This document shows, in pieces, positions 12,024 to 42,530 of a stretch of DNA of 43,991 nt. Source of the DNA: Halovivax gelatinilyticus (GTDB taxonomy: Archaea; Halobacteriota; Halobacteria; Halobacteriales; Natrialbaceae); assembly GCF_024300625.1 (NCBI RefSeq), contig NZ_CP101322.1, forward strand, positions 1 to 43,991, given 5' to 3'. The notes under the pieces are model-generated. The model was given only the letters and a program-made list of their open reading frames with translations. It ran no database searches and was not told the DNA's origin. The position numbers and the translations under genes were made by a program. The stretch's first letter is position 1, and every line of letters begins with the position of its first letter.

Positions 12024-12155
12024 GTATCACGTACCGCTCGCATCACTCATCCTCGATTCAACCACCGCGCACCACGTGATGTATCGCTTCAAACCGCACC
12101 CCACTCCGAACCTCACCGCACATCACCGTCCAGCACTCCCGTCACCATCCACGAA

Positions 12156-15676: not shown

Positions 15677-16182
15677 TCCCCACCACCCCACTCACCACTC
15701 GGCCGAAGCGAATCCGCCGGCTCCAATAACTCATTCACCTCTCTATCCGAACCGGCACCAGCACCCGACGCCTCCAACTCACCCGCAGCTGGCGCCTGCA
15801 ACTCCCACCACTCCGCAACCGAATACGCCTCAACCGCACACGCCGGACTCACCCGCACCAACTCAAAATCCTCTACCCGCCACGCCCCTTCCCGAACCGA
15901 ACACGCCCCTACGCGCCCACGAACAACACACTCGTACACACCAAGCGTCCACAACTCCGGTACCCCAGTATCATGACGCTTACAAAACGCACACCCCACC
16001 TCAAACGAAGGCTCCGAAACCGCACGGAACACGTACGCTAAAACCGCATCACCCTCCCGAAGAGGTGTACCGCACACCTGACAAATCGCGGCCCCTTCCC
16101 CGAAACCGACAATTACTGATTGTTTGATGTCTTCAATTTCCAGACCGTCGTGTTTATCCTTCTTTGATGTTTTGTCTGTCAT
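15673..16182 (-). CDS. Zinc-ribbon protein opening the HRAMP operon
   Basis: 169 residues. A treble-clef or ribbon-like metal site is made by CQVCGTPL (Cys about 34 and 37) and CAFCKRH (Cys about 63 and 66). The segment EGDAVLAYVFRAVSEPSFEV between them is beta-rich. The C-terminus is an acidic low-complexity tail. It is the first gene of the operon, coupled by ATGA to the Cas7-like gene. Its leader holds a perfect 8-bp hairpin. A zinc-binding small subunit recalls Csf1 of type IV systems, but the similarity is no more than the Cys pairs. It could also be a regulator of the operon. Confidence 0.65.
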   Translation of the reverse strand: MTDKTSKKDKHDGLEIEDIKQSVIVGFGEGAAICQVCGTPLREGDAVLAYVFRAVSEPSFEVGCAFCKRHDTGVPELWTLGVYECVVRGRVGACSVREGAWRVEDFELVRVSPACAVEAYSVAEWWELQAPAAGELEASGAGAGSDREVNELLEPADSLRPSGEWGGGE

Positions 16183-22291: not shown

Positions 22292-22993
22292 TCAGGACAG
22301 CGTAAGTTCGACGTGTCCGACCAGGTCGGAGTCTCGGAGCTGTTCGATTTGATCATCGGTCAGTTGATCTAGCATCAACCGTCTCTCCGTGAGCAAACCC
22401 TCGACGATTGGCTCAAGTGCCGTCCCGTCGTAGGGGCCGAACAGGTCTTCCCGACATTCCTTAAAGTACCCGCGCATATCCTCACCGTACTCTGCTGCTC
22501 GCTCTTTCAGGGTCTCGAAGTCAAAGTCCCCGTCGCGGTAAACCTGCCCCCTCCAGTCCCAGTCGGCGAGCAGTTCGTCGACAGCTTGGAGTTTAACGGG
22601 GCTAACCCGCTCGACGCGCTCGTTCAGCTCCCTCATGCCTCCAACCCGTCTGTTCATTGCGATTCGCGTTTCGTGTATTTCATTTGTCACCGTGCGTTTC
22701 TGGTCTTCGACCTTCCTTTCGAGCTCGTCAATTCGCTCGTCGAGTTCTTCGAACTCGCCGGCATCGAGGAGACTTCGCGCCTCAACGACGGCTTTTTTCG
22801 CCTCGGAGTCGATTTCCATCTCGGTTTTAAGGAACTTCTCAGCGAGGATTCGCTGGAGGATTGTTTCCTCCATGGTCTCGGCGATATCGTCAAGACGGTT
22901 CGCAAGCTGCCGGTGACGATATTGCTGGTAGACCTCGTCGATGCGCTCCTCGAAGTTCCGGTTGTCCGTCCTCTTCACTTGTTTACTCGACAT
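22292..22993 (-). CDS. Coiled-coil protein, last gene of the helicase array
   Basis: 233 residues, highly charged and helical. A long coiled coil spans about 30-125 (LDERIDELERKVEDQKRTV), followed by a helical C-terminus (ESLLTERR-type charged helices, VEGLLTERRLMLDQLTDDQI). The ATG at 22993 is chosen over the GTG nine bases earlier because GGAGGTGA (23003-23010, minus strand) is placed 9 bases before it. It overlaps the stop of the ATPase gene by 11 bases. It probably forms oligomers with the ATPase. In Dpd clusters a similarly placed small gene (dpdI) follows dpdH, but I cannot show homology. Confidence 0.7.
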   Translation of the reverse strand: MSSKQVKRTDNRNFEERIDEVYQQYRHRQLANRLDDIAETMEETILQRILAEKFLKTEMEIDSEAKKAVVEARSLLDAGEFEELDERIDELERKVEDQKRTVTNEIHETRIAMNRRVGGMRELNERVERVSPVKLQAVDELLADWDWRGQVYRDGDFDFETLKERAAEYGEDMRGYFKECREDLFGPYDGTALEPIVEGLLTERRLMLDQLTDDQIEQLRDSDLVGHVELTLS

Positions 22994-25907
22994 AATATTC
23001 ACTCACCTCCATGAAGTCGCTCCCAAGTTTGGCAATACCTCCCGTTCCCGACAATGGCACCTTCTGGAAGTCCGTAATGATCGGTGCATTATCTAACTTG
23101 AGACTGGATAACGTTGCCGTCACCGTGGCGAGCGAGTTACTGCCGTAGATCCGGTCGGCCAGTTCTGCCGCTTCGACGGCATTTTCTAGATCGGTCTGTG
23201 TGTGGGTACAAGCCTGTCCAAGCTGCTCCGTAAGGTCAGGGTCGACGGTATCGTACGTCTTCAGTTTATTATATCTGTCATGGACGTGTGTGATGTCTGT
23301 TCCATCGAGTACGCCTGCAACGTACTCCACGGTATCTCGTTTGTAGCCATGGTCGGATACATCCTCGAGAGCAGCTCTCACATCGTACATCGTGTTGGCG
23401 AAATCCCTGACGTTGTGGCCCTTTGCGAACCGTACGCGAGAAGAAATCTGCCCGATCTGATTTCGACCCAGCATATCCAACACGTCGTACGGCGGACTTT
23501 CCTCCAGTCGTTCACGGACTTCTGGGACATCTAGTGTACTTGCGGAAACGCCCAGCAGCGATCCAAGAACGTTCTCGACGTACTCGGCATCTTCCATCGA
23601 AGCTTCGATAGCTTGCACCTGTTCGTGATTGAGAACGTCTTGAAGCCCAGCGAGGAGTTCCGTATCGACCGCTAACTCATCATCGCTCTTGTACTGTTCG
23701 TTAAGTCGTGTAGCCGTCACCTCTTGCCAGGGGTCATCCAGCAACACCAGCGTCGCATATGTCGCGAGGATAAAATCGGTGAAGTCGTATCGGGCACGTC
23801 TTTTGTAGAACCGATTATCGTGATTGAGCTGAGTCTCGAAGATTCGATTTCTCCATTCCTGTGCGTACCCGGTGAGCTGAGTGCCTGCCCCTTCCAACTG
23901 AGTGTCGTAATTGGCCGAGCGTGCATCCATATTTCGGCGGACCCCGAACTCAACAAGGCGCCTGAGGTCCGATCTTCGGAACTCACTTCGATCGAGGACT
24001 ATTTGATCGTCGTCCGGTGCTTCGTTCGAGTCCGGATAGACGAACGGCGATTTCTGACTGCTGAGCATGTAGCGCAGCGGCGTCCCCTCGATTAACCGGA
24101 AGTCGTCCGTCAATTCTTCGAACAAGTCACGCATCGCGCGCCTGATGTAGTCTTCCGTGTCGATGTACTTGTCCGGGTCTTCGATCCAGGAATCGATCTG
24201 TGACTTCTGTTTCTCAATTTCGCGCTCGACGGGGGACTTCCCGCCACCGCTACCCGCACCGTAGCCGCAACTCGAACAGATACGATTACCATCAGCGTCG
24301 ATTGCCCAGTCCTCTGCACCACACTTCGGACAGTCGTCTCTGGACTCACCACCCGATGCAGAAATCTGGACCTCCTCGTCGCCGATGTCGATGGCATCAG
24401 GTAGCCCGTCGATTTCGAGGCCGAAGGCGTCGACAAACTTCCGTTCAACGACGACCCCCTCACCGCGCTCGCGGCCGTACCATTTTGCAAGGTCGGCGTA
24501 CACCTCAGCATCCTCATAGACGACGTCAGCCACAGAGACGGTATTTTTTAGCGGCCGGAGGCTGTCAGCCGACGACGGCACTTCCACGAAGCCGTCGTGA
24601 AAGTCCTGAAGAACCTCGAAGACGGTCATGATGAATTCGCGAGGGGACTGCTGGCTCTCGTCGAGTCCAGCGAAAATCCGCCGGAGGAACGGCTGGTTGA
24701 ACGGGAACAGGTCCCGGAACGACTCATCACAGAAGCCGCACTGGCTACAGATGGAATCATCCGGCGCTCGATTTAGATTGAACGTCCCACTCTCGGTGTC
24801 GCGGTCGTATCGTACGCTGCCGTCATGTGATTTGATGTAGCCGAGATACGGTCGAACGAAGTCGACGGCTGAATTCTCATCGAGGAACAGGACGGTATTC
24901 GAGTCCCGCTCGTTCGTCTGGAAGAACTCGAAGCGATCTTCGGCCGTCCGCGTGTGCAGCACGTTCGTGGAATCTCGGGTTCCAGCGACGATGAAGTCCC
25001 AATTATCCGACCCTTTGTCTCGCTCCATGTACTTGCGGAGCCGTTCGGCCTCCATCGCGGCGATGGAAAAGTCCTCGAACACGATGACCGGTCGAGTATT
25101 ATCGAAGCGCTGCCCGACCTGCTCGAGGACGTCGTCCAGGGAGGCAGTGTCGTATCTATCGCGAATCTCGTTCCAGAGCGCCTCGTTGAACGCGTCGACG
25201 GCCGCATCGGTCCCGACACTGTCGTCGAAAATCTGGAGTTCATTGCGTTGTTTGTACTCGTTTTCGCCGATGAACTGGATTTTCTGAGCGTATTCACCGC
25301 GCTCTACGAGCCGTTCCAGCTTCTCTGTCACAAAGTCAGTAATCTCGTCTGCTTGCTCAGCACCAGGTCTAACGTCGTACTCATTTTTCCGTAACTCCAA
25401 AATGGCACCAGAAGTCGCATTGTTGGCAACCGACTGGGGTACGTCAATGATATCTTCGTGCAGCTTTTCGAATTCGGAAGCACCTGGAAGCTCTTCGCCG
25501 AAATTCTCTCGGTAGAAGTCTGGGATACGCTCAGAGAGAATCGACATCAGGTCGTCGTCCTTGTCGATGTGGAGCATCGGCCGCCCGTCTTGGCGTAGCT
25601 TGTGTGATATATACGCACAGAGTTCCGATTTTCCGGTCCCGACCTCCCCCTCGATGACGACCACGAAGTTGCCAATCCGGTCCTCAGAGAACTCTTGGTA
25701 GATGCGATCTTCACCCCAGATATCGCCGCCTGCGGACGTGCCTCGGAAAACCTCCATCGGCCGGTGTGTGAACTGGAACAGGTCGTAGTCCTCTGACCGA
25801 ACCGCTGCGACTTTACTGAATAGTCGACGGAGCATCTGCTCGTCGACTTCCTCGAAGTGGGGGCACCGGGATGGTCCAGATGCGTCTGGGCGGAGGATTT
25901 CGTTCAT
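22983..25907 (-). CDS. P-loop ATPase with zinc ribbons (DpdH-like)
   Basis: 974 residues. Walker A GEVGTGKSE (about 87-95), Walker B VIVFEDF (about 274-280) and a sensor-like FIVAGTRDS (about 305-313) define an AAA/STAND-like ATPase. A Cys cluster CSQCGFC is at about 387-393, and a zinc ribbon CPKCG with CSSCG at about 526-547. The C-terminal 350 residues are helical with no motif I know. Size, order after a small winged-helix gene and association with two YprA-type helicases recall DpdH of the 7-deazaguanine DNA system. It overlaps the upstream gene by 4 bases (ATGA) and the coiled-coil gene by 11. Likely role: nucleotide-driven switch or assembly factor of the defence complex (inference). 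Confidence 0.75.
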   Translation of the reverse strand: MNEILRPDASGPSRCPHFEEVDEQMLRRLFSKVAAVRSEDYDLFQFTHRPMEVFRGTSAGGDIWGEDRIYQEFSEDRIGNFVVVIEGEVGTGKSELCAYISHKLRQDGRPMLHIDKDDDLMSILSERIPDFYRENFGEELPGASEFEKLHEDIIDVPQSVANNATSGAILELRKNEYDVRPGAEQADEITDFVTEKLERLVERGEYAQKIQFIGENEYKQRNELQIFDDSVGTDAAVDAFNEALWNEIRDRYDTASLDDVLEQVGQRFDNTRPVIVFEDFSIAAMEAERLRKYMERDKGSDNWDFIVAGTRDSTNVLHTRTAEDRFEFFQTNERDSNTVLFLDENSAVDFVRPYLGYIKSHDGSVRYDRDTESGTFNLNRAPDDSICSQCGFCDESFRDLFPFNQPFLRRIFAGLDESQQSPREFIMTVFEVLQDFHDGFVEVPSSADSLRPLKNTVSVADVVYEDAEVYADLAKWYGRERGEGVVVERKFVDAFGLEIDGLPDAIDIGDEEVQISASGGESRDDCPKCGAEDWAIDADGNRICSSCGYGAGSGGGKSPVEREIEKQKSQIDSWIEDPDKYIDTEDYIRRAMRDLFEELTDDFRLIEGTPLRYMLSSQKSPFVYPDSNEAPDDDQIVLDRSEFRRSDLRRLVEFGVRRNMDARSANYDTQLEGAGTQLTGYAQEWRNRIFETQLNHDNRFYKRRARYDFTDFILATYATLVLLDDPWQEVTATRLNEQYKSDDELAVDTELLAGLQDVLNHEQVQAIEASMEDAEYVENVLGSLLGVSASTLDVPEVRERLEESPPYDVLDMLGRNQIGQISSRVRFAKGHNVRDFANTMYDVRAALEDVSDHGYKRDTVEYVAGVLDGTDITHVHDRYNKLKTYDTVDPDLTEQLGQACTHTQTDLENAVEAAELADRIYGSNSLATVTATLSSLKLDNAPIITDFQKVPLSGTGGIAKLGSDFMEVSEYYVE

Positions 25908-26737
25908 TGAATCACCTCGATGGCGTTCGCATCTTTAGCGATTCCTTCCCGCCGAGGGATGCCATTAAGATTGACCGCAGCGGCGTCTCCATACTCTGCA
26001 ATTCGGATCATATCGTTACGAACGAGATTGAATAACACGCGTGAAAGGGAAGCTGGAACGCTTCCGTCGTCGGTGAGTTCGATGAGAAGGAGGTTCTCTC
26101 GGAGCCACTCGACGTAGTCAGTGATGAGGACCCGGTGTTCGCTTCCGACCTCGTTCGCCGCGAGCCTGATCGAGTGATCGATCATCTCGGGATCGGGATA
26201 CGTCGTGTGGGTGCGCCCGTTCGCTTTGTACACAAGTCCGAGAAACACAGCCAGTCGCGACCAGTTGACGAACTTGGGCTCGTTCAGATCTATCTCACCC
26301 TCCTGAGACCGTGGTGCGTATCCGCGCTCGCGCTGCCAGCGGTTGATCTTCTCGTAGAGAGTCCCGTCGTTGGACTCGAACGCCTGGTGTTCCTCTTGGA
26401 GTAGGTACTGATAGTTCAATAGAACGACCGACTGCTTTCCCCAATCAGGGCTTTCGGCGTCGGTAGCGAGATTGTGTAGGATTCCCAGCCGGAAGTCGAG
26501 GGCGTCGTCTCCGGTATGCCACGGAAGATCGACGGTGTAGTAATCGGGCTCTTGCCGACCGATGATCCCAATCGCGCGAAGCCCGGTGAGCCCTTGATTG
26601 AGGAGGTCACTGTCGAGTGCGGTATCCTCGGCAATTTCGTCTTTGGTAGTATTCCCTCGCTCGATGGACCGGTATACGGTTCGCAACGGCGTTGGTGTCT
26701 GTACGGCGTTCAGGATGTATGGTGCAGTTTCACTCAT
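25904..26737 (-). CDS. Winged-helix-containing protein (DpdG-like position)
   Basis: 277 residues. About 8-75 reads as a winged helix (LRTVYRSIERGNTTKDEIAE, LTGLRAIGIIGR, DYYTVDL). The remainder is helical with no catalytic motif. It overlaps both neighbours by four bases (ATGA), so it is made together with the ATPase downstream. DpdG in Dpd clusters is a protein of about this length directly before DpdH, and the same pairing is seen here. Homology is suspected from order and fold type, not shown. It could act as DNA-recognition or regulatory subunit. Confidence 0.65.
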   Translation of the reverse strand: MSETAPYILNAVQTPTPLRTVYRSIERGNTTKDEIAEDTALDSDLLNQGLTGLRAIGIIGRQEPDYYTVDLPWHTGDDALDFRLGILHNLATDAESPDWGKQSVVLLNYQYLLQEEHQAFESNDGTLYEKINRWQRERGYAPRSQEGEIDLNEPKFVNWSRLAVFLGLVYKANGRTHTTYPDPEMIDHSIRLAANEVGSEHRVLITDYVEWLRENLLLIELTDDGSVPASLSRVLFNLVRNDMIRIAEYGDAAAVNLNGIPRREGIAKDANAIEVIQ

Positions 26738-27663
26738 AGTGTATTGCTCAGCCAGTCGTAGTACCGCGCCTCGATATCGTTCGCCTCCGGGTCAACCGAT
26801 TTGGCCGCGTCCCGGGCGTCGCCCAGTTTCGGACTCCGTTTCGCATAAGACGGATCGAATGCCGTCCCTCCCATCGACACCGTTCGGTTCAGATCGCGAG
26901 CGATCGCCGATGCCGTCCCCTTCTCCCATTCGATTCGTCGGCGTAACCAGCCGCCGAACGCCTCGATAATCTCGTCGCTCTCGAGCGGAGCGACACCGAG
27001 CTGATCTCTACGGGCGAAGATTTCGGAGAACGTGCTGTACAGCGGAAGATAGGGCGCATCCGTGAGTACATCGAATAACTCCCGCGTAGTTCGAAGCCCC
27101 TCGCATTCGACCAGTTCGTAGATGTTCGCATTATCCTGGAGGAACAGGTTCTTCGTGTCCAGCAGCGGGAGTCCCCACCCCTCCTCCTCGTAGTAATCTT
27201 CGAACGCGTCGTAGACGATGTCGTAGCTACCAATCCGCTCGCAGAACTGTTCCTGGTAGAGCGGGCGCAGCCCACCGATCGGTTGGAACCGTTGCTCGTC
27301 TGCAATCACGACCAGTGTCCCGTCTGTGCGAGTGTGACGATCGATGAGTTCGTTCACGGTATACTGTGTCTGTTTCTCATAGTAGCTTGTCGTGATAACA
27401 CAGAGGTCTTCCGACGGCGGAAGATCGATCCCGCCGAGTACGTGATACTCGTGGCCCGGAAAAGCATATTGGGCCCCTCCCCGTTCGTGTTGCCAGGTAT
27501 GTTTGAGCTGTCGCCACGATGTCGGGTAGGTTGCGTGCTCCAACCCCAAGTACGTAATCGCCGAAAGGGCCCGCAGCTTCCAGAAGTGGACGTTCCCTCC
27601 GGGGTCGTGGATGAACGCTATGTCGGCGTCGGAAAGTCGCCGCCGAATGGCCTCCAGACTCAC
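26734..27663 (-). CDS. Uncharacterised protein of the helicase array
   Basis: 309 residues; not recognised. The N-terminus IRRRLSDADIAFIHDPGGN followed by strand-like VITTSYYE and TLVVIADEQRF suggests an alpha/beta fold, perhaps nuclease- or phosphatase-like, but I cannot assign catalytic residues. The C-terminus is helical (EALGGWLRRR-type; YYDWLSNTL end). It is coupled by 4-base overlaps to the 1578-aa helicase before it and the winged-helix gene after it, which places it in the same complex or pathway. Confidence 0.6.
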   Translation of the reverse strand: MSLEAIRRRLSDADIAFIHDPGGNVHFWKLRALSAITYLGLEHATYPTSWRQLKHTWQHERGGAQYAFPGHEYHVLGGIDLPPSEDLCVITTSYYEKQTQYTVNELIDRHTRTDGTLVVIADEQRFQPIGGLRPLYQEQFCERIGSYDIVYDAFEDYYEEEGWGLPLLDTKNLFLQDNANIYELVECEGLRTTRELFDVLTDAPYLPLYSTFSEIFARRDQLGVAPLESDEIIEAFGGWLRRRIEWEKGTASAIARDLNRTVSMGGTAFDPSYAKRSPKLGDARDAAKSVDPEANDIEARYYDWLSNTL

Positions 27664-30600
27664 GATCCCCCCTCATCGACGATGGCGCTTAGCGTCCGAT
27701 GGTCGAGCAACTCGTTCTCGAGGTAGTGGCTGGGCGTCCGAGAGAGGAGTAGACACTCGTCGCAGTAGTCAACGCACCGTTGACAGTCGGCGACATCCAC
27801 GACATGGTCTGCGACCTCGTCGAGATTCTCGTAGACGTGCCAACCGATCCCGTTTCCGCCCTGACGCCCGTCCACTATGGAGACCTCGACGGCATCCTCG
27901 GAGACGGACGCCTTGACCCGGTAGTCGGATCTGTCACACTTGACGACCACGGGGATCGCTCGGTCAAGCGCCTGTTCGAGACTGGTCAATAGCTGTGGCC
28001 ACGACGCGGTCGGGTGGGTGACTGCATCGTATCGTTCGGATACCTCCTCCCGGTCGAACTCGAGTCGAAGCCCCTGCGTGTGATGTTGTTGCCCCACCGG
28101 TCGATACATCTCTTCTTGGGCCTGTTCGAGTCGGTCACGCCAAGAGAGTCCGCTCTTCGAGGTCTCTCCCTCGTCTTTTTCGATAAGGGCCTGCGATCGG
28201 AGTATCTCCGTCGACGGACTGGCCGAGTGGCCACGCTCGAACGCGTAGACGAAGTCCGTCAGTTCGAACTGCCCGTACTCGACGGAGCAGTCAATCCCGA
28301 ATATGCTCGTCTCCAACCGCTCCCGTTCTGCGTCGGTAGGTCGAACGTACGTCGACATCTGCGCGTGCGTCCGGTAGAGACGGCGTCCGCCTTTCGCAAG
28401 CGAGCACTCGACGGATGACACTCCGTGAATATCGCTCACAACCAGCTCAGAATCGCAGTGCGGACAGGTCACCTCGTCGGGGTCGAAACTCCGGAATCGT
28501 CGGTCGCACTCTGCGTTGTCGCAGACCGCGACCTCCGTCAACGGCTGCGGCGTTCCACGAACGTCCTCTACGATGTACTCTGTGCCGTGTAGCGACACCA
28601 TCCCACCGAGATCGTTCTCCTCGCCCGGATACATATCATACAGCCGGCCACTCCCCTCGAAGGAGATTTCGTCATGATCTCCGCTGAACTTCACGGGGAA
28701 GTTCTGGCCGAAGCTTCGGTAGTTCGCGAGGTAGCCGAGTTTACTCAACCACTGGTCGAGTCGAGAGGTGTTGCTCGTGAGGTCGCGGTTCGTCGTCGCA
28801 CCGGACGACATTCCTCGCAACCGAGAGAAAGTCTGCTCGACGCGGCGAGAGAGCCCCAGCGGCCCGTCCTCGAAGAACACCTGTTCGTATACCTGCACCC
28901 CTCTGTCGCCGAAGATCCCACGCACGTATTCACGGAGGACGTCGTCCATCTCCTCCTGGATGAACTCTCGGAGAATGAAGAGGTTCTCTTCGACTCCGCT
29001 GACGAACTTCTCGAGGTTTTCGAGTTTCGGTTCGGAGAGTCTGTACGTCAGTTCGAAGACGTTGTCTTCGTGTGGGTTCCGGGCGAGGTAGGCGAAAACC
29101 TCCGTGACGACGTGGCCCGCCAGTACTTCGTCGAAGTCCTCTGGGTCCGGAATTCGCACCGGTTCGAAGCCCCCGAGATAATTATCCAAATTCGCGTAAT
29201 AATGACCGTCGACGGGGTGCTGGCCGCGAACTACGGTCATGACTAGCGAGGAGCTTCCACGGGTACGCCCGGTTCGCCCCGAGCGCTGCACGTAGTTCGT
29301 TAGCGTTGGTGGAACCCCGACCTGCGCGACCGTGTCGAGACTCCCGATGTCGACACCGAGTTCCATCGTCGGCGTCGAACTGACGACGTTGATCTCCGGG
29401 GGATCCTTTCGAAAACCCTCTTCGATGGCGCCGCGAATTGCCGAGGAAATGTTCCCCTTGTGAATACCTACGGAGACGAACTTTGCCTCTGCGCCGTTTC
29501 GAATCGGTTCCGTCACGTCGTGCGCCCAGTGGTCAACGGCGTACTCCCAGCCAGAATCGACCTCAGCGTAACCGGGGTCCGCGACGAGTTTTCCGTCATC
29601 AGTTTCGGAAAAACGCTGGTACGTGTCGATGGCTTCCCCGCACTCCTGGCAGAATTCGACAGCATCTCCCTCGTCTGTCGTCGGGAACGAAGCGTAACAG
29701 TCGCCGCAGAAAGCCGCCTCGGATAGTAGAACGAGCGACGATTCATCCTCGCGAACGTTTCGGGTGACCACCCCGCTATCGGCCGGTCCCTCGACGATCT
29801 CCCGCTGCTCTACATCCTCGCGTGCCGCTTGGAGGTAGTCTCCAATCTTTGTCCGCTTTTCATCCTCGGTGAGGTTGGCCTTCTCCACTGCCCTCTTTAG
29901 CGACTCGTGTGTCGAAATTGAGATGATTCCGGTTTCGAGGAACTCGCCGAGAATATCGTCCAGTATCTCGTCGATGCGGACGCGGTCCACCAGCAAGTCT
30001 CCATCCAATCGGTCGAGAATCTTCTCTCGAGTCAGGCCGTCGATCTTCACGCCGGAGTACTGGAACGATGCATTGTCGAGTACGAGCCGTTTGTAGAGCG
30101 CGTGAGCGACCGTGATTTCGACCGGGTCATCCATTTCGGCAACGACGTCCGCGGTTACGAGCGCGCTGTCGAAAAGCGCCGTACAGTTCGAGAGGTACGC
30201 GTGTGTCTCGATGTCTTCACGCAATGGGACAAGGAAGTTGTAGGCCTCTGCGTCCTCGTCGAGATTATCCTGAACGAGCGGCTCCCAGTATTCCTCCCGG
30301 AGTGTGTTGGCGACCGCCCTGAACAGATCGAATTGGTTGGCTTCTCCACCAGCGTCGATCAGCTCTTGTAGGTATAATGTCTGGGCCATGAGTCCGTACT
30401 CCGTGCCGATAATCTCATCACCGACACTCTCCGCTGCGCTGTGGGAGTCCGAGAAGACGAGCGTCTTCTTCGATGGCGACACACGACAAACCTCGGATAG
30501 CATATATGACAGTAGCGAGGATGTCGGAACACCGATATCGGTCAACCGGGGCGACCCACCGCAACCGGGGCAGTCGTCGCCGGACCCGCCCCGGATAGGG

Positions 30601-32396: not shown

Positions 32397-32471
32397 TTTT
32401 GTTGATTCGGGTGTGTCGTCTGGTTCGTTAGGTCGTTAGGTTGGTCAGTTCGGTCGTGCTATTGGTGCGTA

Positions 32472-35400
32472 TTAATCCCGAAATCCTGTATACACCTCCA
32501 CGGTGACCTCTTCACCGGGGTCGAGTTCCCCAATTTGTGACTTGGTCAGGGTCGCTGTGGGCGGATTGGGTCTGTCGGCGACACCGAGACGCCTGTACAG
32601 TTGCTTCCACGCTTTCTGATCTTCGTATTCGTCAACGTCTGGAGCGACGGCGCGGAAGATCGACTTCGACGCGACGATGAACAGCTTCCGTTTCATTCGG
32701 CTCGCGCCGACGTTGAACCGGTTCGCATCCAATAGAAACTCCGCGAGACCGTTTACATATCCTTGATTTCCTGCGGTCATCGCGAGAACCATTACGTCTT
32801 TTTCGTCCCCCTGGTATCGCTCCACGGTGTCCACCGGAACGCCGATTTCCTGATCGGAGATGCGCCGTCGCATGAGTCGGAATGGAACGACGACGCCGGC
32901 GGAACACTGCCTTTCCCCCGGATCGGCCGCTACAACGGGCAATGTCGAAAGCAACTTCTTGGCAAGATAGGCCTCAACCGGGCTGTCTTTTGTGAAACGT
33001 TGATCGTCGTGGAGGAGCAGCGTCACTCTTGGTTCGGGGTCGAGTGCTTCCCGGAGCCACGCGGGCATCGCCGAGGTCCGGACATCCGGGATTCGTCTGG
33101 CCTCCGCGTGGGAAGTCAGCTCGATTCCGTCCCGGTAGTAGAACAGGTCGGTCTCGAACTCGGCCATCGCCGGTGGCAGTCGATATGTGATAGTTAGCCG
33201 CTCCATCGGAATCACTTGGTCCGGATCGTCCCACTCGGGCGGTTTGCGTTCGACCGTTGCGAGGTCGCGGTTGGTCTCACCACGCAGGAATCGAATGAAG
33301 TCGAGCGCCGACACAGCCGGTGTGTGCTCCTCGATGGTCGCACGATCTTCGGACTCCCAATCGTGTGAGTGGATGGGTTGCATCTGTCGATGATCGCCGA
33401 CCAGCTGAATCTGGCTACCTTCTCGCAGAAACGCTCCGACTAGGAACAACAGCGGCAGATCCATCATGCTCGCCTCGTCGACGAGCGCATAGTCGAAGAT
33501 TGCAGCCTCGCCGGACTTCAACAGATCGGAGACATTCGAGTCGGCGCTGATCTGGCCGGCAACCGTGTTGACCATGTTCCGCAAGGTAACCGGCGTCGCA
33601 AACACCACGACCTTTTCGCACCCATCGGAGAGTGGTTCGGCTAGCAATTCTTCGAGTTCCTCGCTATCCTCGTAGTATTGGAGGTCGTGAACGTTATCCG
33701 GGAGATCGGTCAATCCTGCACTAGATGCGCGCACCCGTATGAGCGTAACGTCCCTCCCTGCCCCCGAAGCCGCGAGTCGCATTGTCGCGTCGCCGACCGC
33801 TCTCGCCACTTCGTCGACCGCGGTATTAGAGTGGGCGCTGACAACTCCGATGAAAGGCTCGTCGTCCGGCGTCGTGGCTACTCGTGAGAGGATGGCTGGT
33901 GTAGATGCGTAGGCCGTCTTGCCAGTTCCTGGCGGCCCCTGGACGGTACCGACCGAGTGGTTGAGCTGCCGGACGAACTCCCGCTGAGCGCAGTTGGATT
34001 CGTACGGCATCGCCGCATCGAATTGCCTCAGGAATCCTTCCACTGCATCCGGGTTTCGAAACGGCTCATCAAACTGGAGGGCAGTCGGATTTTCCTCCGC
34101 ATAGACGTCGAGTAGTTCGTTGTGAAGAACGTTCTCATTCGCGTTATCGATCGCTTCACGAGCACGGTAAGCGGAGTAGTCATCAAGGGCCTCGTTCACG
34201 GCGAACGTCATTCCCTCGGCAATCAGCTGCCGTTCATCGTCGGGATCGCTCGTCCAACCGACGTGGTTCGTCATATTCGGCACCGCTCGTCGGTTACTGT
34301 CCGTCGGGAAGGAAATCTTCACCTGGCCCCGATCAGTATTGATATGGCCCAACCGACCGAGAACTCCATTTGCGTACTTCGTCGGGTCATCCGGTTTTTC
34401 GATGAGTCGGCCATCGTCGTCTTCTACTAGCGGCGTCAACACGACCCAGTTGCCGGACTCCCGACGGAGCGTCGTGGTCGCGGTCATCCCGGGCTGGCCG
34501 TCACCCAACCTTCGGAGGATTTCTCCTTCGACGGTGTTTTTCTTCTCGAAATTCTCCCTGTTTTCCGGCGGGTTCGTCACCTCGAACGGAATAGTTTGCC
34601 CAGCAGCTACCCGTTCAGCCAGCGGCTGCCTGTACCGATACTCCAAGGCGCGTCGCTTTGAACCATGTTCGAGTTGTTGATACTCGACAAGTGTTCGCTG
34701 AAGGGCCGACTCCCCCAGGGAGTTTGCCGTCAACGATTCCAGATTAATTGGTTCCTTGGTAACGCCGGCGTTCTTGTACCGAATACACCGCTCGATGTAC
34801 TCGAAAGCGTTACAGATGGTGTGGATAAGATCTTCGATGTCTGAGAGGCAGACACGCGGTGAATCATCTCCCTCGTGGTGGCGATATCGCACAATTTCCG
34901 CGACTGCAGCCTCGTCGCTGGCCCAGTCCTCATCGAGTACGTCGAACTCTTCGGCCGCGTAGAGATACTCCAGCGGCATCGTATCGCGGTGACGTTCGAT
35001 AACCGGATAGTGCCCATGGAATCGATCCGGCGGTACAACGAGACCGTTATCGGAGTTCGGAAAAACCCTGTCCGCGAACTCCTCGATTGGAAGTGCTACC
35101 TCGAAGAACCCGAGATCGAACACGCGCTTCAGCGGCGTCTCTGTTTCGTCTCGGACGTCCTCCCAGCCAAAATCTCGCTCCTTCGAAATGTCGTAGAACT
35201 GTGCGACCGTCTGGAACAGCCCCAGCCCGGGATATCGAAAGGCGTGTCGCGCACGGAACTCCTCGCGAAGGACGCTGACAATCTCTTGGTCGATATCTTG
35301 CCGGTACCCAAGCAGGGTACGAACCGCATCCGCGACGGGGTCTCCTTCGTGGCGCCTCGTCGCATCGACAAGCCATTCGCGCTGTCGCTCGCTGTACGGG

Positions 35401-36896
35401 TACATGTGGAACAGTCCCTCTTCTGAACGGAGTCCTTCATTCGAGAGGTCGGGGCGAACTCTACCAATCGCCGCTTCCAACTTATCGATGAATTCAGCGA
35501 GCAGCTCTTTTTCAACTTCGTCTTTTGCGTCCGGGTCTCGCACAAGCGCGTCGGTGATCGCGAGAACGAACTCCCCGTCGCCGTCGTTCCGGCTGCAATC
35601 GACCTTCGCCCCGAGAATACACAGGCGGTTCCGGACGTGGTCGTGTTGGATATACGGGTACACACGAACGATTGATTCGCGAGGGTACTCGAGAGAGAAA
35701 CTGTCGGGTGGAGAGTCGTCCGGAAGATTCCGACCGGATCCGATCAGGTACTCTTGCCACGGACCGACGCCCTCGGCGTTCGCCTGCCACCACCGTTCGA
35801 ATTTCGGATCGATCTCACGGCGGAATCGGTGGGCGATCTGTACGCGCTCGTACAGGCGTGAGAGCTCGGTCGATGACTGGATTTCAGCGACGAGATCGGG
35901 GTTACTCGCTTCCGGGAGTGACCGTCTAATTGGATGTCTGGCCCATCGGCCGGTGGGAAGATCATAGAGGTCGACGAGGTCGTTAATCCTCTCGATACCG
36001 AACTCTTGGAGACCTTCCTGCACGCCCTCGGAGAAACCGAGCAGGGACAAATCTCCAGTCGTCGCCGAGCGGGCGACACACTTGGCCTGTTTCGGGCAGC
36101 TATCACAGCGCTCATCGATGCGGTACCTCGGAGGTTGGGTGTCTCCGTTGCTTGCCGGTCGCCCGTTCTGGTCGAGAAGTACGCGATCAAGCGTACCACT
36201 TCGCTCTAACAACAGTCGAACGTCGTTTATCCGGCTTTCCAGCTCGAAATCTGCGAGTATATCGAAATTCAATCCTTCTGCTACCACCGGCCCGAAGCTG
36301 TTCCCTCGTGTTACGATACTCGCAGTCACCTCCACGTTCCGATCACCGAGGAGCTTGCGGAGCAAAAGCGCGTACATCGCGGCTTGAATTTGATGGTGGG
36401 TTTTCGATTCCGTCGACGACTTCATCTCGAGGACACGCACCTCGACCCCGGATCTCCCATCGATAGTGGTTGGTGATACTAATAGACCATCAGCCTCACC
36501 GCGTACGGGCCACGCCTCTATCGACCCCTCGAAGGTTGGCTGATAGCCAACAATCGGCGAGTCCTGTACCCCAGCGAGAACGCTGTCAACGAGATCCCGA
36601 ACGTGGTCACCCTGAGCTTCTCCGGCCCACATGGCATCGAAATGTAGGTCGTGATCTGCCGGTCCGACCACGAAACACTCCGTACCCTGTAGCAACCGTA
36701 TCTGACCGATTTCGAATCGCACGCCAGTCTCGGCAAGCAGTGGACTTACCCGAACGTCGTCGATAGACTCCGGGATGCTCTCACCATATTCTTGGAAGAG
36801 GTACATTGGGCATTGCTTGAGACTGAAGTACTTCGCTATGATGCTGGGGTGAACTGACGGCCGGGGTTCGGAACTGCATTGCGGTGGTACGGTCAT
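32472..36896 (-). CDS. Cas4-like Fe-S nuclease fused to a Dna2/Upf1-like SF1 helicase
   Basis: 1474 residues. The N-terminus is a RecB/Cas4-like PD-(D/E)XK nuclease: Asp in EADGLL (about 136), LEMKS (Glu157, Lys159), QIQAAMY (Gln169, Tyr175). Cysteines KQCP (29) and CDSCPKQAKC (264, 267, 273) are placed as in Fe-S-bearing Cas4/AddB nucleases. An HhH-like segment follows (about 284-308). The C-terminal SF1 helicase has GPPGTGKT (about 990), DEAS (about 1139), LVGDHRQMQP (about 1170), YQGDEKD (about 1362) and NVGASRMKRKL (about 1395). It fits 'TM0106-type nuclease + AAA_12' proteins and Dna2. It is the first gene of the leftward operon, 75 bases before the 1578-aa helicase, and probably supplies DNA cutting and unwinding to the system. 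Confidence 0.85.
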   Translation of the reverse strand: MTVPPQCSSEPRPSVHPSIIAKYFSLKQCPMYLFQEYGESIPESIDDVRVSPLLAETGVRFEIGQIRLLQGTECFVVGPADHDLHFDAMWAGEAQGDHVRDLVDSVLAGVQDSPIVGYQPTFEGSIEAWPVRGEADGLLVSPTTIDGRSGVEVRVLEMKSSTESKTHHQIQAAMYALLLRKLLGDRNVEVTASIVTRGNSFGPVVAEGLNFDILADFELESRINDVRLLLERSGTLDRVLLDQNGRPASNGDTQPPRYRIDERCDSCPKQAKCVARSATTGDLSLLGFSEGVQEGLQEFGIERINDLVDLYDLPTGRWARHPIRRSLPEASNPDLVAEIQSSTELSRLYERVQIAHRFRREIDPKFERWWQANAEGVGPWQEYLIGSGRNLPDDSPPDSFSLEYPRESIVRVYPYIQHDHVRNRLCILGAKVDCSRNDGDGEFVLAITDALVRDPDAKDEVEKELLAEFIDKLEAAIGRVRPDLSNEGLRSEEGLFHMYPYSERQREWLVDATRRHEGDPVADAVRTLLGYRQDIDQEIVSVLREEFRARHAFRYPGLGLFQTVAQFYDISKERDFGWEDVRDETETPLKRVFDLGFFEVALPIEEFADRVFPNSDNGLVVPPDRFHGHYPVIERHRDTMPLEYLYAAEEFDVLDEDWASDEAAVAEIVRYRHHEGDDSPRVCLSDIEDLIHTICNAFEYIERCIRYKNAGVTKEPINLESLTANSLGESALQRTLVEYQQLEHGSKRRALEYRYRQPLAERVAAGQTIPFEVTNPPENRENFEKKNTVEGEILRRLGDGQPGMTATTTLRRESGNWVVLTPLVEDDDGRLIEKPDDPTKYANGVLGRLGHINTDRGQVKISFPTDSNRRAVPNMTNHVGWTSDPDDERQLIAEGMTFAVNEALDDYSAYRAREAIDNANENVLHNELLDVYAEENPTALQFDEPFRNPDAVEGFLRQFDAAMPYESNCAQREFVRQLNHSVGTVQGPPGTGKTAYASTPAILSRVATTPDDEPFIGVVSAHSNTAVDEVARAVGDATMRLAASGAGRDVTLIRVRASSAGLTDLPDNVHDLQYYEDSEELEELLAEPLSDGCEKVVVFATPVTLRNMVNTVAGQISADSNVSDLLKSGEAAIFDYALVDEASMMDLPLLFLVGAFLREGSQIQLVGDHRQMQPIHSHDWESEDRATIEEHTPAVSALDFIRFLRGETNRDLATVERKPPEWDDPDQVIPMERLTITYRLPPAMAEFETDLFYYRDGIELTSHAEARRIPDVRTSAMPAWLREALDPEPRVTLLLHDDQRFTKDSPVEAYLAKKLLSTLPVVAADPGERQCSAGVVVPFRLMRRRISDQEIGVPVDTVERYQGDEKDVMVLAMTAGNQGYVNGLAEFLLDANRFNVGASRMKRKLFIVASKSIFRAVAPDVDEYEDQKAWKQLYRRLGVADRPNPPTATLTKSQIGELDPGEEVTVEVYTGFRD

Positions 36897-37244
36897 AATC
36901 GTGGAAGATTTGTGCCAACTTGATTGCTTGACACCAGTATCGACGAATCGGCGGCGTCAGCGCTTTGGAATGTTACACGTTATCTACACTACGACGAGCA
37001 ACCAGATATTTTGGTAGCCTAGTGTTGATCTTCTTGATACCCCATATGGGCCTATCATCCTACTAACGTAACGGATACATTACTAATGTTTCGACCGGAG
37101 CGACACCAATTCACTATCACGGACCATGCCTGAGCGAATACATTAGTTTAAATTATTATATATTAGATTGGATGTTTTTATAGTCATGGACGTTCCCCCG
37201 CAAGATTGAATTGAATTACGGGAGCAGATGGAGTAACGACTTGA
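36897..37244. promoter_or_regulatory. Divergent control region of the helicase array
   Basis: 348 bases between the two arms of the array, clearly AT-rich towards the plus-strand gene. ATTATTATATATTA (37152-37165) and TGTTTTTATAG (37173-37183) are TATA candidates for the gene at 37245. A perfect 6-1-6 palindrome ACATTACTAATGT lies at 37077-37089, its half-site ACATTA recurs at 37140-37145, and CCCATATGGG sits at 37041-37050. These look like operator sites for a regulator serving both arms. A tiny frame starting at 37185 stops after seven codons and is not called. Confidence 0.45.
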
Positions 37245-40200
37245 ATGAAGTATTTCGATCGCAACTCTAACCGGTCTCGTGTGAAACGGGACGTGGAACC
37301 GCTCGTCCGGGGGCTCCTAGAGAACACACAGATATTCGGCCCCGAGACCGAGAACCCACCCCAGGTCACCACGGCTCTCAAGTACACTCGCAAACCACAA
37401 AAGCGACGGAACCCCGGTGACTACGGTGGGTCAGATCCGTTCATCGCGGATATCATCGATATCTTTGGATTTGAGCCGCTCAAGTTCCAGCAGACCAGCT
37501 GGGAATTGGTGAGAGACCTGAACCAGCAACGATGTGGCGGGGACTCACAGGGAGCAATCTTCTCAGCCCCTACCGGCTTCGGCAAGACTGAGGCGTTCCT
37601 CGGACCGCTCTATCAACTGCTGCGTGAAGATGATCTGGAGCGTGTCGCGCTGGTCTATCCGAGCAAGGCGCTCCTCCAGGACCAGCTCGGTCGGGTGCTC
37701 GAACATCTGCATACGATCAAAACGACGAGCGAAGACCAGATATCGGTCGGCGTCTGGTCGGGAGACACCGCCTACGAATTGGATGACGTCGCGTCGGAGA
37801 AGGCACTGTTTGAAGGAACGGGGCCGAACAAGCGCTTTAGACTCGCCAACTGCTGGTGTGGCGAGCCCCACGACCCACATTCGTTCCAATACGACGGTGG
37901 GAGCGCACACTACGAGTTGGTTTGCGAACACGACGACAGCCATTCCTTCACCGAGGAGGAAGTAGTGTTGAACCGCGAGGACATCCGCCGGTCGAACGGC
38001 CCTGAAATCGTGTTGACGACGCTCGAGTCGTTGGAACTGTTCGGGTTGAAACCAAATTACGACCTCATCGACGAGATCGATGCCATCGTCTTCGACGAGA
38101 TTCATCTTTATACGGGCATCCGCGGAGCACACGCTGCCAACGTCGTCGATAACATCGAATCCATCACCGACCAGTCGATGTTATGGCTCGGTGCCAGCGC
38201 GACTGTCGACGACGCCGAGCAATTCGCCGCGAAAATCTTCCCGATTCCTGATGGTAGAATCGAGGCGGTGGCCCCACCAGATGAAGACTTCGAGACCGAC
38301 CACGATGACCACGAACACTACTTCTTCCTTAAGGCAACCGAGGACGGGCCAGGAGTCTCCTCGATGTTTATCCAGCAAATCCTCCTGCTCGGACACGCGA
38401 TGTTGCAACAGCAGGACGGTCCTAGAGGAAAACTGTTGTCGTTCATCGACAGCATCAGTCAGGTGAATCAGAAGCGAACACAGCTACAGGACGCAGATGA
38501 GCAACGGGAACTGTGGCGCCATCACGTGGACATCGACGAGCCCGGCGACTGGCGCGACGTCGCTGAAGGGATGGACAGAGAATTCGTCGAGGGGTCGTTG
38601 GAGTTCTCGTCCGTCTACTCAGACGCCGGATTTGATGCCTCCGTCATCCGGAGCGATGTTCTCCTGTCGACGAACTTCCTCGAAGTTGGGATCGACGTTG
38701 GTGACATCTCCATCGTGACGCAATACCGGACGCCGTGGAACCTTTCATCATTCGTCCAGCGTGTCGGGCGGGCCGCGCGCGAACCCGGAACTGACTCGTT
38801 CATCTTCGTCTTCCTCTCGGACCTTACGAGTGACTCCAACATGTTTTACCGAGCGGATCGGTTCCTCGGTTCCGAAATTCGAACGCCGCTAAAGCCCGAC
38901 AACGAGGTCATCGAGTGGATTCACGACCGCTATCGAGAATTCTACGAGGGTTCGACGCGAGTTCGCGAGAGACGCCACTTCTCCAACAAGCGAGAGAAAG
39001 AGGAGTTCCACGAGGAGTACCTGGTCGACGAACTCGGCTGGGCAGAATACTACGACCTGATCGACGACCCGGAAAGCGTCCTCTTTCGTACACTCGGTAT
39101 CACTGGTTCGTTTGACCCCCTCGTCGGCCAAGAACCGATAATGGAAGTCCTGGCGGCTCTCGAAGAGCGCGACGAAGAACTCGAGGAGAAACTCGACGAG
39201 CTAGGTGTGGCGGGAGAGGAAGGGACGGGGGATACCGAACGCGAGATGGTCGAGAGCGTCAGAACAGACATTTTAGGCTACATCAAGGAACGGCGGAAGC
39301 TGGTTGCCGAGTGCCGGGAGATGAACGAGGAGTTCGTCGACCGTTCGGTCCTCGACGGATTAGAATCGGAGCTCGAAGAGGCTCGTGAAACCATCGCTGA
39401 ACCGGCACCGGGGCTGAACGTGGAAATTGACAGATTCCGCAACGTGCTCCCGATTCTGTACACGGTGAAAGGGAACGTGCTTCGAGTTACCAACGCCGCA
39501 AACAGCGCCGATATCACGCTGTCCCCGTTGACCTTAGATATCGGTGAACTCGAATCATCCATCGAGCGCATTGCGGACGCGTTGGACGACGACCGAGTCG
39601 CGGAGCTCGTTCTCGAAAGAAAGCGGCTGTACTATCTCAAGCAAACGCTCGAAGAGCTATATGACTACCAGGCGATTCCGAGCAACTACCTCAGTCTCTA
39701 TTACGTCAAGCATCTCCTCCGGGGCGGATACTACTACGATCGATTCCTCCAAACGGCCGGCGACTCCCTCGCTGACGAGGTATGGTTCGTTCCCGAGAAC
39801 TATTTCGACGACGCTGGACAGTACTTCACCGTGTTCCACGGAGATGACGACGTGGAGGGAAGCGATCAATCAATAGATAAAATCGTCCACTCGTACACGC
39901 CCTTCCGTAGTGAGTATAAACAAGATGCAGGGGAACTGCAGGCGTTTATTCCGGAGACGATTATCTACGACGACTCGGTGAAGTTCACATTCAACGACGT
40001 CTCTGGAGAGCGACGTGACGACCTCATCATCCCCGACTCGATCAGACTCGATACCGTAACCGATCTCAGCGGATCGAAGGCATTGAACATCGTCCGGTAC
40101 TGCCCCCAGTGCCTGCAAATTCTTGATCACGGCAGTTGTCTCCGACACAATGATCGTGCCCTCGGGAAGATACACGCGAGTCCGTCGGTCGAGACGTCGG

Positions 40201-41288
40201 TCAACATAGGTGAGAATACGGAGTCGCGCGGTCTCGTTACCCTCTCAGACATGTCCGGTGAGGTAAAGCTCGTCGGCGTCTCGCTCGAAATTACGCCGGC
40301 GACGTACATCCGTTCCAGTGATGAGTATATCTTCACCGGCGAAGACCGTATCAAGCGGGAGATCGAGTCGCCGGACAGAACCCTCGGGTTCGGCCTCGAT
40401 ACCCGTGGGCTCACTTTCGACATATCCCGTTTCCTCAACCGGATTGACGACCCCGAGATTGTTACCCGACTCGACCGATACAAGGACCGGTCCGAGGTCG
40501 GGCTCCGGGAGATGGGGGCACACACGGCCGCGCACTTTTTCATCCAACTGGTAGCGGACGTGGCGGGCGTTACCCCGCGGTCGTTGTTCTACGGAATCGA
40601 TATGGATGAAGAGGTCGTGTACGTCTTCGAACGATCGCAGGGTGGACAGGGACTCGTCGACCTAGTTTTCGACGACCTACGCGAGGATCCCGGAACCGCG
40701 CTGGAATCGGTCACCCGAATCACCTACGACCCGCAGGTCATCTGTGAACGTCTCTGGGCCGACGTATCGTTCGTCGATGACCTCCCACCCGTTAATCCCG
40801 ATCAGACTGCCATCGAGGATGCTGTTCGGAGCGCCGACGAGGTCCCGATGTTCGATCACGTCGTCGATCAGGTCGTCGAAGAGGTTCAATCAACGGTCGA
40901 CCGGGCACAACAGCTTGCACAAGAGGAAGCGATTTCCCTGCGGCGAGCGTTCCAGATCAAAAACGTCGTTTCATCGGCGCGAATCGATGGGGAGTCGACG
41001 TACCCTGAAGAGGCCGTTACCGACGTTCTGCCCGATTTCGACGGTCACGACAGGGTTGAGACGCTCTTTTTCTCGCCAAACATCGACGGCTGCGTCGAGA
41101 ACCTCCAACTGTCGGAGTGCATTTCGGGCCACGATCAGTCCGACACGCTCAGCTACGTGCTACTCGAGGAGCTCCGAGAGGAGCTAATTCAGCGGGTTCC
41201 TCACGACGAGATGGCCGACGAGCTGTTCGATCGCGAAGTCCTGCCGGGAGGTGAGTACGATGGCACGAGTATTTTCCTTACCCTCTAG
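37245..41288 (+). CDS. Second YprA-type helicase, DpdJ-like
   Basis: 1347 residues. SF2 motifs: APTGFGKTE (about 108-116), DEIH (284-287), SAT (about 317-319), STNFLEVGIDVGD (about 473-487) and QRVGRAARE (about 504-512). Inserted zinc-type residues occur at CWCGEPHDPHS and CEHDDSH (about 205-235), and CPQCL with CLRH near 955-970. A charged coiled coil spans about 635-725. The C-terminus holds a DUF1998-like region with ERSQGGQGLVDL (about 1127-1138). Size and its coupled downstream HKD gene match the DpdJ-DpdK pair of Dpd clusters and the DrmA/DrmC pairing in DISARM. It probably tracks along DNA to license cutting. A diverged second copy starts at 42531. Confidence 0.8.
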   Translation: MKYFDRNSNRSRVKRDVEPLVRGLLENTQIFGPETENPPQVTTALKYTRKPQKRRNPGDYGGSDPFIADIIDIFGFEPLKFQQTSWELVRDLNQQRCGGDSQGAIFSAPTGFGKTEAFLGPLYQLLREDDLERVALVYPSKALLQDQLGRVLEHLHTIKTTSEDQISVGVWSGDTAYELDDVASEKALFEGTGPNKRFRLANCWCGEPHDPHSFQYDGGSAHYELVCEHDDSHSFTEEEVVLNREDIRRSNGPEIVLTTLESLELFGLKPNYDLIDEIDAIVFDEIHLYTGIRGAHAANVVDNIESITDQSMLWLGASATVDDAEQFAAKIFPIPDGRIEAVAPPDEDFETDHDDHEHYFFLKATEDGPGVSSMFIQQILLLGHAMLQQQDGPRGKLLSFIDSISQVNQKRTQLQDADEQRELWRHHVDIDEPGDWRDVAEGMDREFVEGSLEFSSVYSDAGFDASVIRSDVLLSTNFLEVGIDVGDISIVTQYRTPWNLSSFVQRVGRAAREPGTDSFIFVFLSDLTSDSNMFYRADRFLGSEIRTPLKPDNEVIEWIHDRYREFYEGSTRVRERRHFSNKREKEEFHEEYLVDELGWAEYYDLIDDPESVLFRTLGITGSFDPLVGQEPIMEVLAALEERDEELEEKLDELGVAGEEGTGDTEREMVESVRTDILGYIKERRKLVAECREMNEEFVDRSVLDGLESELEEARETIAEPAPGLNVEIDRFRNVLPILYTVKGNVLRVTNAANSADITLSPLTLDIGELESSIERIADALDDDRVAELVLERKRLYYLKQTLEELYDYQAIPSNYLSLYYVKHLLRGGYYYDRFLQTAGDSLADEVWFVPENYFDDAGQYFTVFHGDDDVEGSDQSIDKIVHSYTPFRSEYKQDAGELQAFIPETIIYDDSVKFTFNDVSGERRDDLIIPDSIRLDTVTDLSGSKALNIVRYCPQCLQILDHGSCLRHNDRALGKIHASPSVETSVNIGENTESRGLVTLSDMSGEVKLVGVSLEITPATYIRSSDEYIFTGEDRIKREIESPDRTLGFGLDTRGLTFDISRFLNRIDDPEIVTRLDRYKDRSEVGLREMGAHTAAHFFIQLVADVAGVTPRSLFYGIDMDEEVVYVFERSQGGQGLVDLVFDDLREDPGTALESVTRITYDPQVICERLWADVSFVDDLPPVNPDQTAIEDAVRSADEVPMFDHVVDQVVEEVQSTVDRAQQLAQEEAISLRRAFQIKNVVSSARIDGESTYPEEAVTDVLPDFDGHDRVETLFFSPNIDGCVENLQLSECISGHDQSDTLSYVLLEELREELIQRVPHDEMADELFDREVLPGGEYDGTSIFLTL

Positions 41289-41700
41289 TGCCCTCCGGTA
41301 CCTGCTCGGCCACGCCCTAGTGTACGACGATCACATCGCCATTTGCACACCGTGGCTCAGTGACGTCGACGTTCGGCTCCCGCTCGCACCGGGAGTCGAT
41401 GATCGCAGCACGAAGTTGGCAGCGGCTATCCGCAATCTCGATACTCAGGTCGATGTGTACGTCCGTCCTGACGAATCTGCCAACGAGTACGCGCTCTCTC
41501 GACTGGCGGGTCTCGAGAACGTTACCGTCACCACCGTTCCCGACATTCACGCGAAGGCAGTCATCACAGATGCGTACGTGTACGTTGGTTCGGCAAATAT
41601 TACACGTGGTGGGTTACTCACCAATCTGGAACTCTGCAAGGTGGTTGAAAACGAGTTCGCTGACGTGCAGTCGTACATCGAAGCGGAGCTGGATATTTAG
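41260..41700 (+). CDS. Single-HKD phospholipase D-fold nuclease (DpdK/DrmC-like)
   Basis: 146 residues. The HKD motif is intact: HAKAVITDAYVYVGSANIT (His-x-Lys-x4-Asp, then Gly-Ser-x-Asn; about residues 107-125). Only one HKD is present, so the enzyme should work as a dimer, as small PLD-fold nucleases do. I take the ATG at 41260 because GGAGGTGA (41247-41254) lies five bases before it. The start overlaps the end of the helicase gene by 29 bases. PLD-fold proteins accompany the YprA-type helicase in DISARM (DrmC) and Dpd (DpdK), usually as nuclease. Its own role here is inferred from that pairing. Confidence 0.85.
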   Translation: MARVFSLPSSALRYLLGHALVYDDHIAICTPWLSDVDVRLPLAPGVDDRSTKLAAAIRNLDTQVDVYVRPDESANEYALSRLAGLENVTVTTVPDIHAKAVITDAYVYVGSANITRGGLLTNLELCKVVENEFADVQSYIEAELDI

Positions 41701-42488: not shown

Positions 42489-42530
42489 GATCTGGTTAAT
42501 GCTATAAGGGTGGCAGGTAAACCATCCGAT

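Follow-up and report, generated by a model that had tools for sequence, protein, structure and literature searches.

How does an array of YprA-type helicases and nucleases spare the DNA of its own host when no modification gene lies among its genes? The question is raised by a locus of the haloarchaeon Halovivax gelatinilyticus that runs through a 43,991-nucleotide stretch (positions 1-43991 of the single 3.70-Mb contig NZ_CP101322.1, hereafter the window) and continues past its end. An earlier note, made from the window, had described at 22292-41700 a YprA-based defence locus with Dpd-, DISARM- and ARMADA-like parts and no DNA-modification gene, and had regarded the way in which self is spared as open. 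The observation holds; the central interpretation is refuted by the sequence past the window, of which the following 32 kb of the contig were examined. The window edge is straddled by a second pair of helicase and phospholipase D-like (PLD) nuclease and is followed, 12.5-21 kb further along the same contig, by a complete 7-deazaguanine module. Modification genes are therefore within reach, contrary to the earlier note. The modification genes belong to the locus and accompany its operon in every relative genome that has the operon; the apparent puzzle of a restriction array without a self-mark is an effect of the window edge. We propose that the locus is a BRIGADE Type I island in which self DNA is marked by a 7-deazaguanine derivative and unmarked DNA is attacked, a reading predicted from sequence to which we assign a probability of about 0.85.

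A 7-deazaguanine module beyond the window edge

The module occupies 56.5-65.1 kb of the contig and encodes QueD, QueE, FolE, QueC, a DUF6884 protein, two paralogues of the tRNA-guanine transglycosylase (TGT) family and a GHKL ATPase, all on the minus strand. By increasing coordinate, a 668-aa TGT with an ArcS-type DUF5591 domain (56527-58533) is followed by the GHKL ATPase (59090-60655), a 415-aa TGT (60652-61899), the DpdC-type DUF6884 protein (61899-62360) and then QueC, FolE, QueE and QueD, in this order, up to 65126. DpdC is reported to carry a DUF6884 domain (PMC11888242). The earlier note had seen no DpdA, DpdB or methyltransferase in reach and had suggested a search of the rest of the genome for DpdA. 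Two TGT paralogues are found in the locus itself; the stretch examined does indeed lack both DpdB and a methyltransferase, and the GHKL ATPase stands in the place usually taken by DpdB. The module lies just outside the window and in the same locus as the array, in substance the case that the earlier note had named as refuting its reading, but on a separate transcript and not in the operon of the array.

The genome contains four TGT-family proteins, namely arcTGT and ArcS near 2.53 Mb and the two of the locus, and a second QueC-family gene elsewhere makes the QueC of the locus an additional copy. The module is distinct from the housekeeping set. A repeat of 39.9 kb stands at positions 1-39934 and 3660697-3700630 of the contig, the pattern that an untrimmed assembly overlap of a circular chromosome would give, so copy counts of genes within this repeat have to be halved.

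Both locus TGTs retain the general-base aspartate (in DSGGF) and the nucleophile aspartate (in FDS/FDC) of active transglycosylases, both of which are missing from the housekeeping ArcS. The ArcS core of the 668-aa protein contains the motif PCx3KPYx2Sx2H, which is kept in nearly every locus that has the 668-aa type and which we take to be the ArcS signature; the ArcS of the same genome matches it as PCSARKPYSESQSH. No PUA domain was detected in the locus TGTs with Pfam or NCBIfam. ArcS of Thermococcus accepts the preQ0 nucleoside itself as minimum substrate (PMC11298593), and a tRNA body is therefore not strictly required.

The predicted restriction genes and their coupling to the module

The eight genes listed for 22292-41700 stand at the positions and on the strands first given for them and are long, conserved coding genes for which chance is excluded by a wide margin; Pfam and PADLOC back the two helicases, the SF1 helicase with its nuclease, the P-loop ATPase and the PLD protein. 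Five of them form the core of the left-pointing arm, within which the 4-nt overlaps noted before occur at three junctions. The core is headed by a 1578-aa ARMADA/BRIGADE-type YprA helicase (27660-32396, minus strand) with a DEAD domain, a large insert with zinc modules, a RecA2 domain and an MZB/DUF1998 region; the DUF1998-like region that had also been suspected in the other helicase of the window was not found there by Pfam. When compared by hhalign, the 1578-aa family aligns nearly end to end with BRIGADE II (1390 columns, E 1e-61) and with ARMADA I (1230 columns, E 8.5e-46), the alignment spanning the insert, whereas with DpdJ, MrfA and DruIII only separate blocks of the helicase core and termini align. 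It is this architecture-wide alignment, and not the approximately unbiased (AU) test, on which we place the helicase with BRIGADE II and ARMADA.

On the same strand follow a 309-aa protein (M309, 26734-27663), a 277-aa protein (25904-26737), a 974-aa P-loop ATPase with weak zinc-ribbon and DpdH matches (22983-25907) and, as last gene of the core, a 236-aa coiled-coil protein (C236, 22292-23002). The DpdG/H-like genes that had been supposed here are borne out by profile comparison. The 277-aa protein matches DpdG (hhalign P 95.7, E 1e-8) and the second gene of BRIGADE II (E 1e-10), and the 974-aa protein matches DpdH (P 98.9, E 2e-17; PADLOC E 5e-5) and the third gene of BRIGADE II (E 7e-17). 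The 309-aa protein, for which Pfam gives no match, has as its sole relative by hhalign the first gene of BRIGADE II (P 93.2, E 3e-7), and the three proteins thus correspond, in the same order, to genes one to three of BRIGADE Type II. With no Dpd counterpart among the hhalign profile comparisons, the 309-aa protein appears to be BRIGADE-specific. No relative of it was found among the viral contigs of IMG/VR, a weak fold search with an AlphaFold2 (AF2) model built from 8 sequences (mean predicted local distance difference test score, pLDDT, 57) gave no fold match, and the relationship to PglZ at which an 'IYDP' stretch had hinted found no support. C236 takes the position of DpdI in the DpdG-DpdH-DpdI order of Dpd; no hhalign match to DpdI and no relative of the protein were detected.

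The arm pointing right consists of a 1347-aa DpdJ-like YprA helicase (D1, 37245-41288, plus strand; PADLOC DpdJ E 9e-45) and a 149-aa DpdK-like PLD nuclease (41251-41700, plus strand) with a single, intact HxK(x4)D motif, whose hhalign match to DpdK reaches P 98.9. Its counterpart, the second DpdJ-like helicase (D2, 1402 aa, contig 42510-46718, plus strand) with its own PLD gene directly behind it (PLD2, 46687-47154, plus strand; likewise a single HKD motif with an intact HxK(x4)D), straddles the window edge, the window holding 42510-43991 of D2 and nothing of PLD2. In the helicase tree both large proteins fall with DpdJ, D1 as its sister (SH-like approximate likelihood-ratio test, SH-aLRT, 99) and D2 as a subclade apart from D1; the profile of this helicase branch aligns with DpdJ over 512 columns (hhalign E 1.7e-40). 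A two-gene cassette encoding a PIN-domain-like protein of ~230 aa and a protein of ~370 aa is found beside the PLD gene in 11/31 loci of the survey described below, for example in Natrinema (L010, 35340-37148), and is possibly an extra nuclease or a toxin-antitoxin pair. Between the five-gene core and D1, a 1474-aa Cas4/RecB-like nuclease fused to a superfamily 1 (SF1) helicase of Upf1/MkoA-like type is encoded at 32472-36896 on the minus strand; like the PLD nuclease, it was already recognised in the earlier note and is confirmed by Pfam and PADLOC. Its family conserves ExK, QxxxY and four cysteines and is an optional member of the loci (10/31), often directly upstream of the ARMADA-like YprA gene; a second Cas4-SF1 helicase lies on the plus strand beyond the QueD end of the 7-deazaguanine module.

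With the 309-aa protein as marker, we surveyed 391 haloarchaeal genomes and found it in 30 of them, all relatives being Halobacteria (Halorubrum, Haladaptatus, Natrinema, Natronosalvus and others). Neighbourhoods with limited flanks were read for 31 loci, which represent 29 marker genomes and two plasmids, Natronosalvus being counted once. The order YprA, 309, 277, 974 is identical in 31/31 loci and the 236-aa gene comes next in 30/31; the five-gene order is kept in 29 sampled haloarchaeal genomes. One genome (G054, L038-L040) has an extra block of 277-, 974- and 236-aa genes directly upstream of the full core, without a recognised YprA helicase of its own. A DpdJ-like helicase with PLD is present in 27/31 loci, in many of them directly after the core, which yields the Dpd order G-H-x-J-K; in the window the pair is inverted. 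Of the module genes, a large TGT, ArcS-like or DpdA-like, occurs in 27/31, a small TGT in 26/31, GHKL and DUF6884 in 25/31 each, and QueC in 18/31.

The coupling is also seen at genome level. Close relatives of the 415-aa TGT occur in 26/30 marker genomes against 16/361 of the others (p 1.5e-25), and a 7-deazaguanine-inserting enzyme lies within the same 20-76-kb stretch in 26/31 loci, small plasmids included. The other four marker genomes carry a canonical DpdA of 734 aa, the Natronosalvus copy scoring above NCBI's cut-off; one of the four (G062) has no Type I helicase and its locus may be Type II. All 30 marker genomes therefore carry a 7-deazaguanine-inserting enzyme beyond the housekeeping set, 26 with the present module and four with canonical DpdA. 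The replacement of the TgtA/ArcS-like module by a DpdA module in four genomes suggests, indirectly, that what matters to the restriction arm is the kind of mark rather than one particular enzyme. DUF6884, TGT and GHKL form a fixed triple, which was met again in nine additional loci that were read and lack the five-gene core. Two of them (G143 and G296) have beside the triple nothing but a D2-type helicase-PLD pair, which may represent a minimal system of marking and restriction.

Proposed mechanism and rival explanations

The sequences show which genes are present, what they are homologous to, that their order is conserved, that restriction genes and module are coupled across genomes and that catalytic motifs are intact; from this we infer that the target is DNA and not RNA, what the chemistry of the mark would be, that the mark spares self, and the order in which the proteins act. 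QueD, QueE, FolE and QueC would supply preQ0. The TGT paralogues would exchange it into guanine positions of DNA, with possible help from the GHKL ATPase; further conversion of the nitrile, to an amide or to a lysine/amidine derivative, may fall to the DUF6884 and ArcS-like domains. Incoming DNA lacking the mark would be sensed by the DpdG-like protein, the DpdH-like ATPase and the 309-aa protein, translocated by the ARMADA-like and DpdJ-like YprA helicases and cut by the DpdK-like PLD nucleases, with the Cas4-like helicase-nucleases probably helping to degrade it. Two restriction arms, one made of D1 and the five-gene core and the other of D2 and PLD2, appear to share the one modification module.

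A more specific version of this scheme, which we put forward tentatively and as less likely than not, derives the mark from the archaeosine pathway of tRNA rather than from DpdA. A TgtA-like enzyme would act as DNA transglycosylase, GHKL would stand in for DpdB, and the TGT-ArcS fusion, which has no recognised tRNA-binding domain, would transfer lysine, leaving an archaeosine-like or lysine-adduct base in chromosomal DNA; the restriction arm would accept either module and the two arms would read one mark. Recruitment of archaeosine-pathway enzymes and a GHKL ATPase predicts a particular base chemistry in the DNA of archaeal cells, which mass spectrometry can check directly, and this marking module is the part of the locus most worth testing.

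Several observations weigh against the proposed reading. For both locus TGTs the match to archaeal TgtA is stronger than that to DpdA (415-aa protein, 4.6e-34 versus 1.1e-6), so that by sequence an RNA target is possible, and DpdB, a part of canonical Dpd, is missing (phmmer, about 92 kb). At least five of the nine loci without the core have no recognised YprA helicase closer than about 20 kb to the DUF6884-TGT-GHKL triple, which implies that the triple can serve another role. The tree by itself does not place the 1578-aa clade, and does not put this helicase with ARMADA/BRIGADE II (AU test, p 0.51 for joining them). The BrxA-like helical insert after RecA1 that defines the clade was not confirmed either: neither sequence nor fold search gave a BrxA match, the AF2 model being poor (8 sequences, mean pLDDT 45, about 80-89 for residues 360-460). 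A MarR-like domain in RecA2 is likewise part of the clade's description; in this low-confidence model, residues 745-891 resemble winged helices, among them MarR-type MepR/SlyA (Z 5-6).

Two rival explanations were weighed. If the TGT and ArcS-like genes modified tRNA as a backup for archaeosine synthesis, DNA would carry no mark; the closer match of both TGTs to TgtA and the ArcS core inside the 668-aa protein would then be accounted for. The genome already has a housekeeping arcTGT and ArcS at 2.53 Mb, though, no PUA domain was detected in the locus TGTs by Pfam or NCBIfam, and these TGTs keep company with DpdG/H/J/K-like restriction genes and with a DpdC-type gene; canonical DpdA fills the same place in the four genomes with the 309-aa marker mentioned above; we consider this explanation improbable. 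Slightly less probable still is a defence independent of modification, in which the YprA array would sense DNA structure such as ends or single-stranded DNA (ssDNA) and the nearby 7-deazaguanine genes would be unrelated. It would fit a window that itself holds no modification gene and the tendency of defence islands to gather unrelated systems, and it has a precedent in Druantia III, another YprA system, which is reported to engage ssDNA-containing replication intermediates (PMC13192584). Against it stand the extra inserting enzyme in 30/30 marker genomes, the enrichment of the present type among them and its physical proximity to the core even on small plasmids.

Flanking genes and comparison with known systems

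On the far side of the core, the window encodes a 1114-aa helicase (16796-20140, minus strand), relatives of which occur in 9/31 BRIGADE loci, and a 649-aa bPH/HNH-repeat protein (20323-22272, plus strand), each with a CarboxypepD_reg-like domain and a C-terminal HHH_5. Further out, an operon at 10980-16182 (minus strand) with very strong GC skew contains two RAMP-like genes of 330 aa (Csm3-like, E 0.009) and 381 aa (Cmr3-like, E 4e-4), whose products both have GGARNxGxG loops, together with a 285-aa gene, a 169-aa CxxC protein, a DEDD-exonuclease-like gene (AFDIETTGF) and an HNH gene. No repeat array was found nearby, and the operon is possibly an array-less Cas-like effector of type III/IV-like kind. 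Between the D2-PLD2 pair and the module, at about 49315-56435 of the contig (minus strand), a UvrD helicase with a PD-(D/E)xK nuclease (1229 aa) adjoins a large protein (991-1144 aa) without a clear Pfam match in an AddAB-like layout; the pair recurs in one other BRIGADE locus (G100) only.

Among known systems, DISARM, with DrmA, a separate DrmB (DUF1998) and DrmC, was considered and rejected, as DUF1998/MZB is fused into the 1578-aa helicase and matches to DrmA are weaker than those to DruE and DpdJ; the helicase tree covers systems other than DISARM, a search of 59 haloarchaeal genomes and of the control genomes having yielded no DrmA reference. ARMADA Type I of Haloquadratum walsbyi PL100 resembles the locus in the helicase architecture of the 1578-aa protein; it differs in that phmmer, with two further ARMADA proteins taken from three ARMADA loci, gave no match near the present locus. 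Compared with the Dpd references of Enterobacter cloacae pPOL9A, Nostoc C057 and Paenibacillus sp. 37 (dpdA-K), the locus shares homologues of DpdG-DpdH-(DpdI)-DpdJ-DpdK in the same order and a 7-deazaguanine mark, which here is predicted. It was not assigned to Dpd: in about 92 kb of the locus stretch phmmer gave no match to DpdB, DpdD, DpdE or DpdF, its TGT lineage is another, nearer TgtA, and it adds an ARMADA-like helicase and the 309-aa protein.

BRIGADE Type II, found on plasmids (Natronococcus sp. CG52, Salinigranum marinum), has the order 309-like, DpdG-like, DpdH-like, small protein, YprA, PLD, with a TGT nearby and, in CG52, also a gene annotated DUF6884. It differs by two tandem ARMADA-like helicases without a Dpd-branch helicase and by a canonical DpdA (733 aa) where the present locus has the TgtA/ArcS-like pair. 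BRIGADE Type I is described as an ARMADA-like and a Dpd-branch YprA helicase with a 7-deazaguanine cluster and, in the neighbourhood, a PLD or PD-(D/E)xK nuclease, usually PLD, and is reported from halophilic archaea only (Bell et al. 2025; PMC12458937). BRIGADE had been among the possibilities named at the outset, and the helicases do fit its two-helicase definition; since both helicases, the 7-deazaguanine cluster, the PLD nuclease and the haloarchaeal host are all present, the locus is very probably a Type I member of this recently described class. It departs from that description in that the DpdJ-DpdK pair is inverted and present as two diverged copies, and in that two Cas4-SF1 helicase-nucleases flank parts of it. 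The available portion of the main text on BRIGADE mentions no GHKL ATPase, archaeosine-type enzymes or Cas4 fusion (PMC12458937). The less described features are TGTs nearer to archaeal tRNA enzymes than to bacterial DpdA, a TGT-ArcS fusion, GHKL in place of DpdB, a swapped module and recurrent Cas4-like helicase-nucleases. BRIGADE Type I thereby gains a concrete parts list, with a core that is conserved and a self-mark module that can be exchanged.

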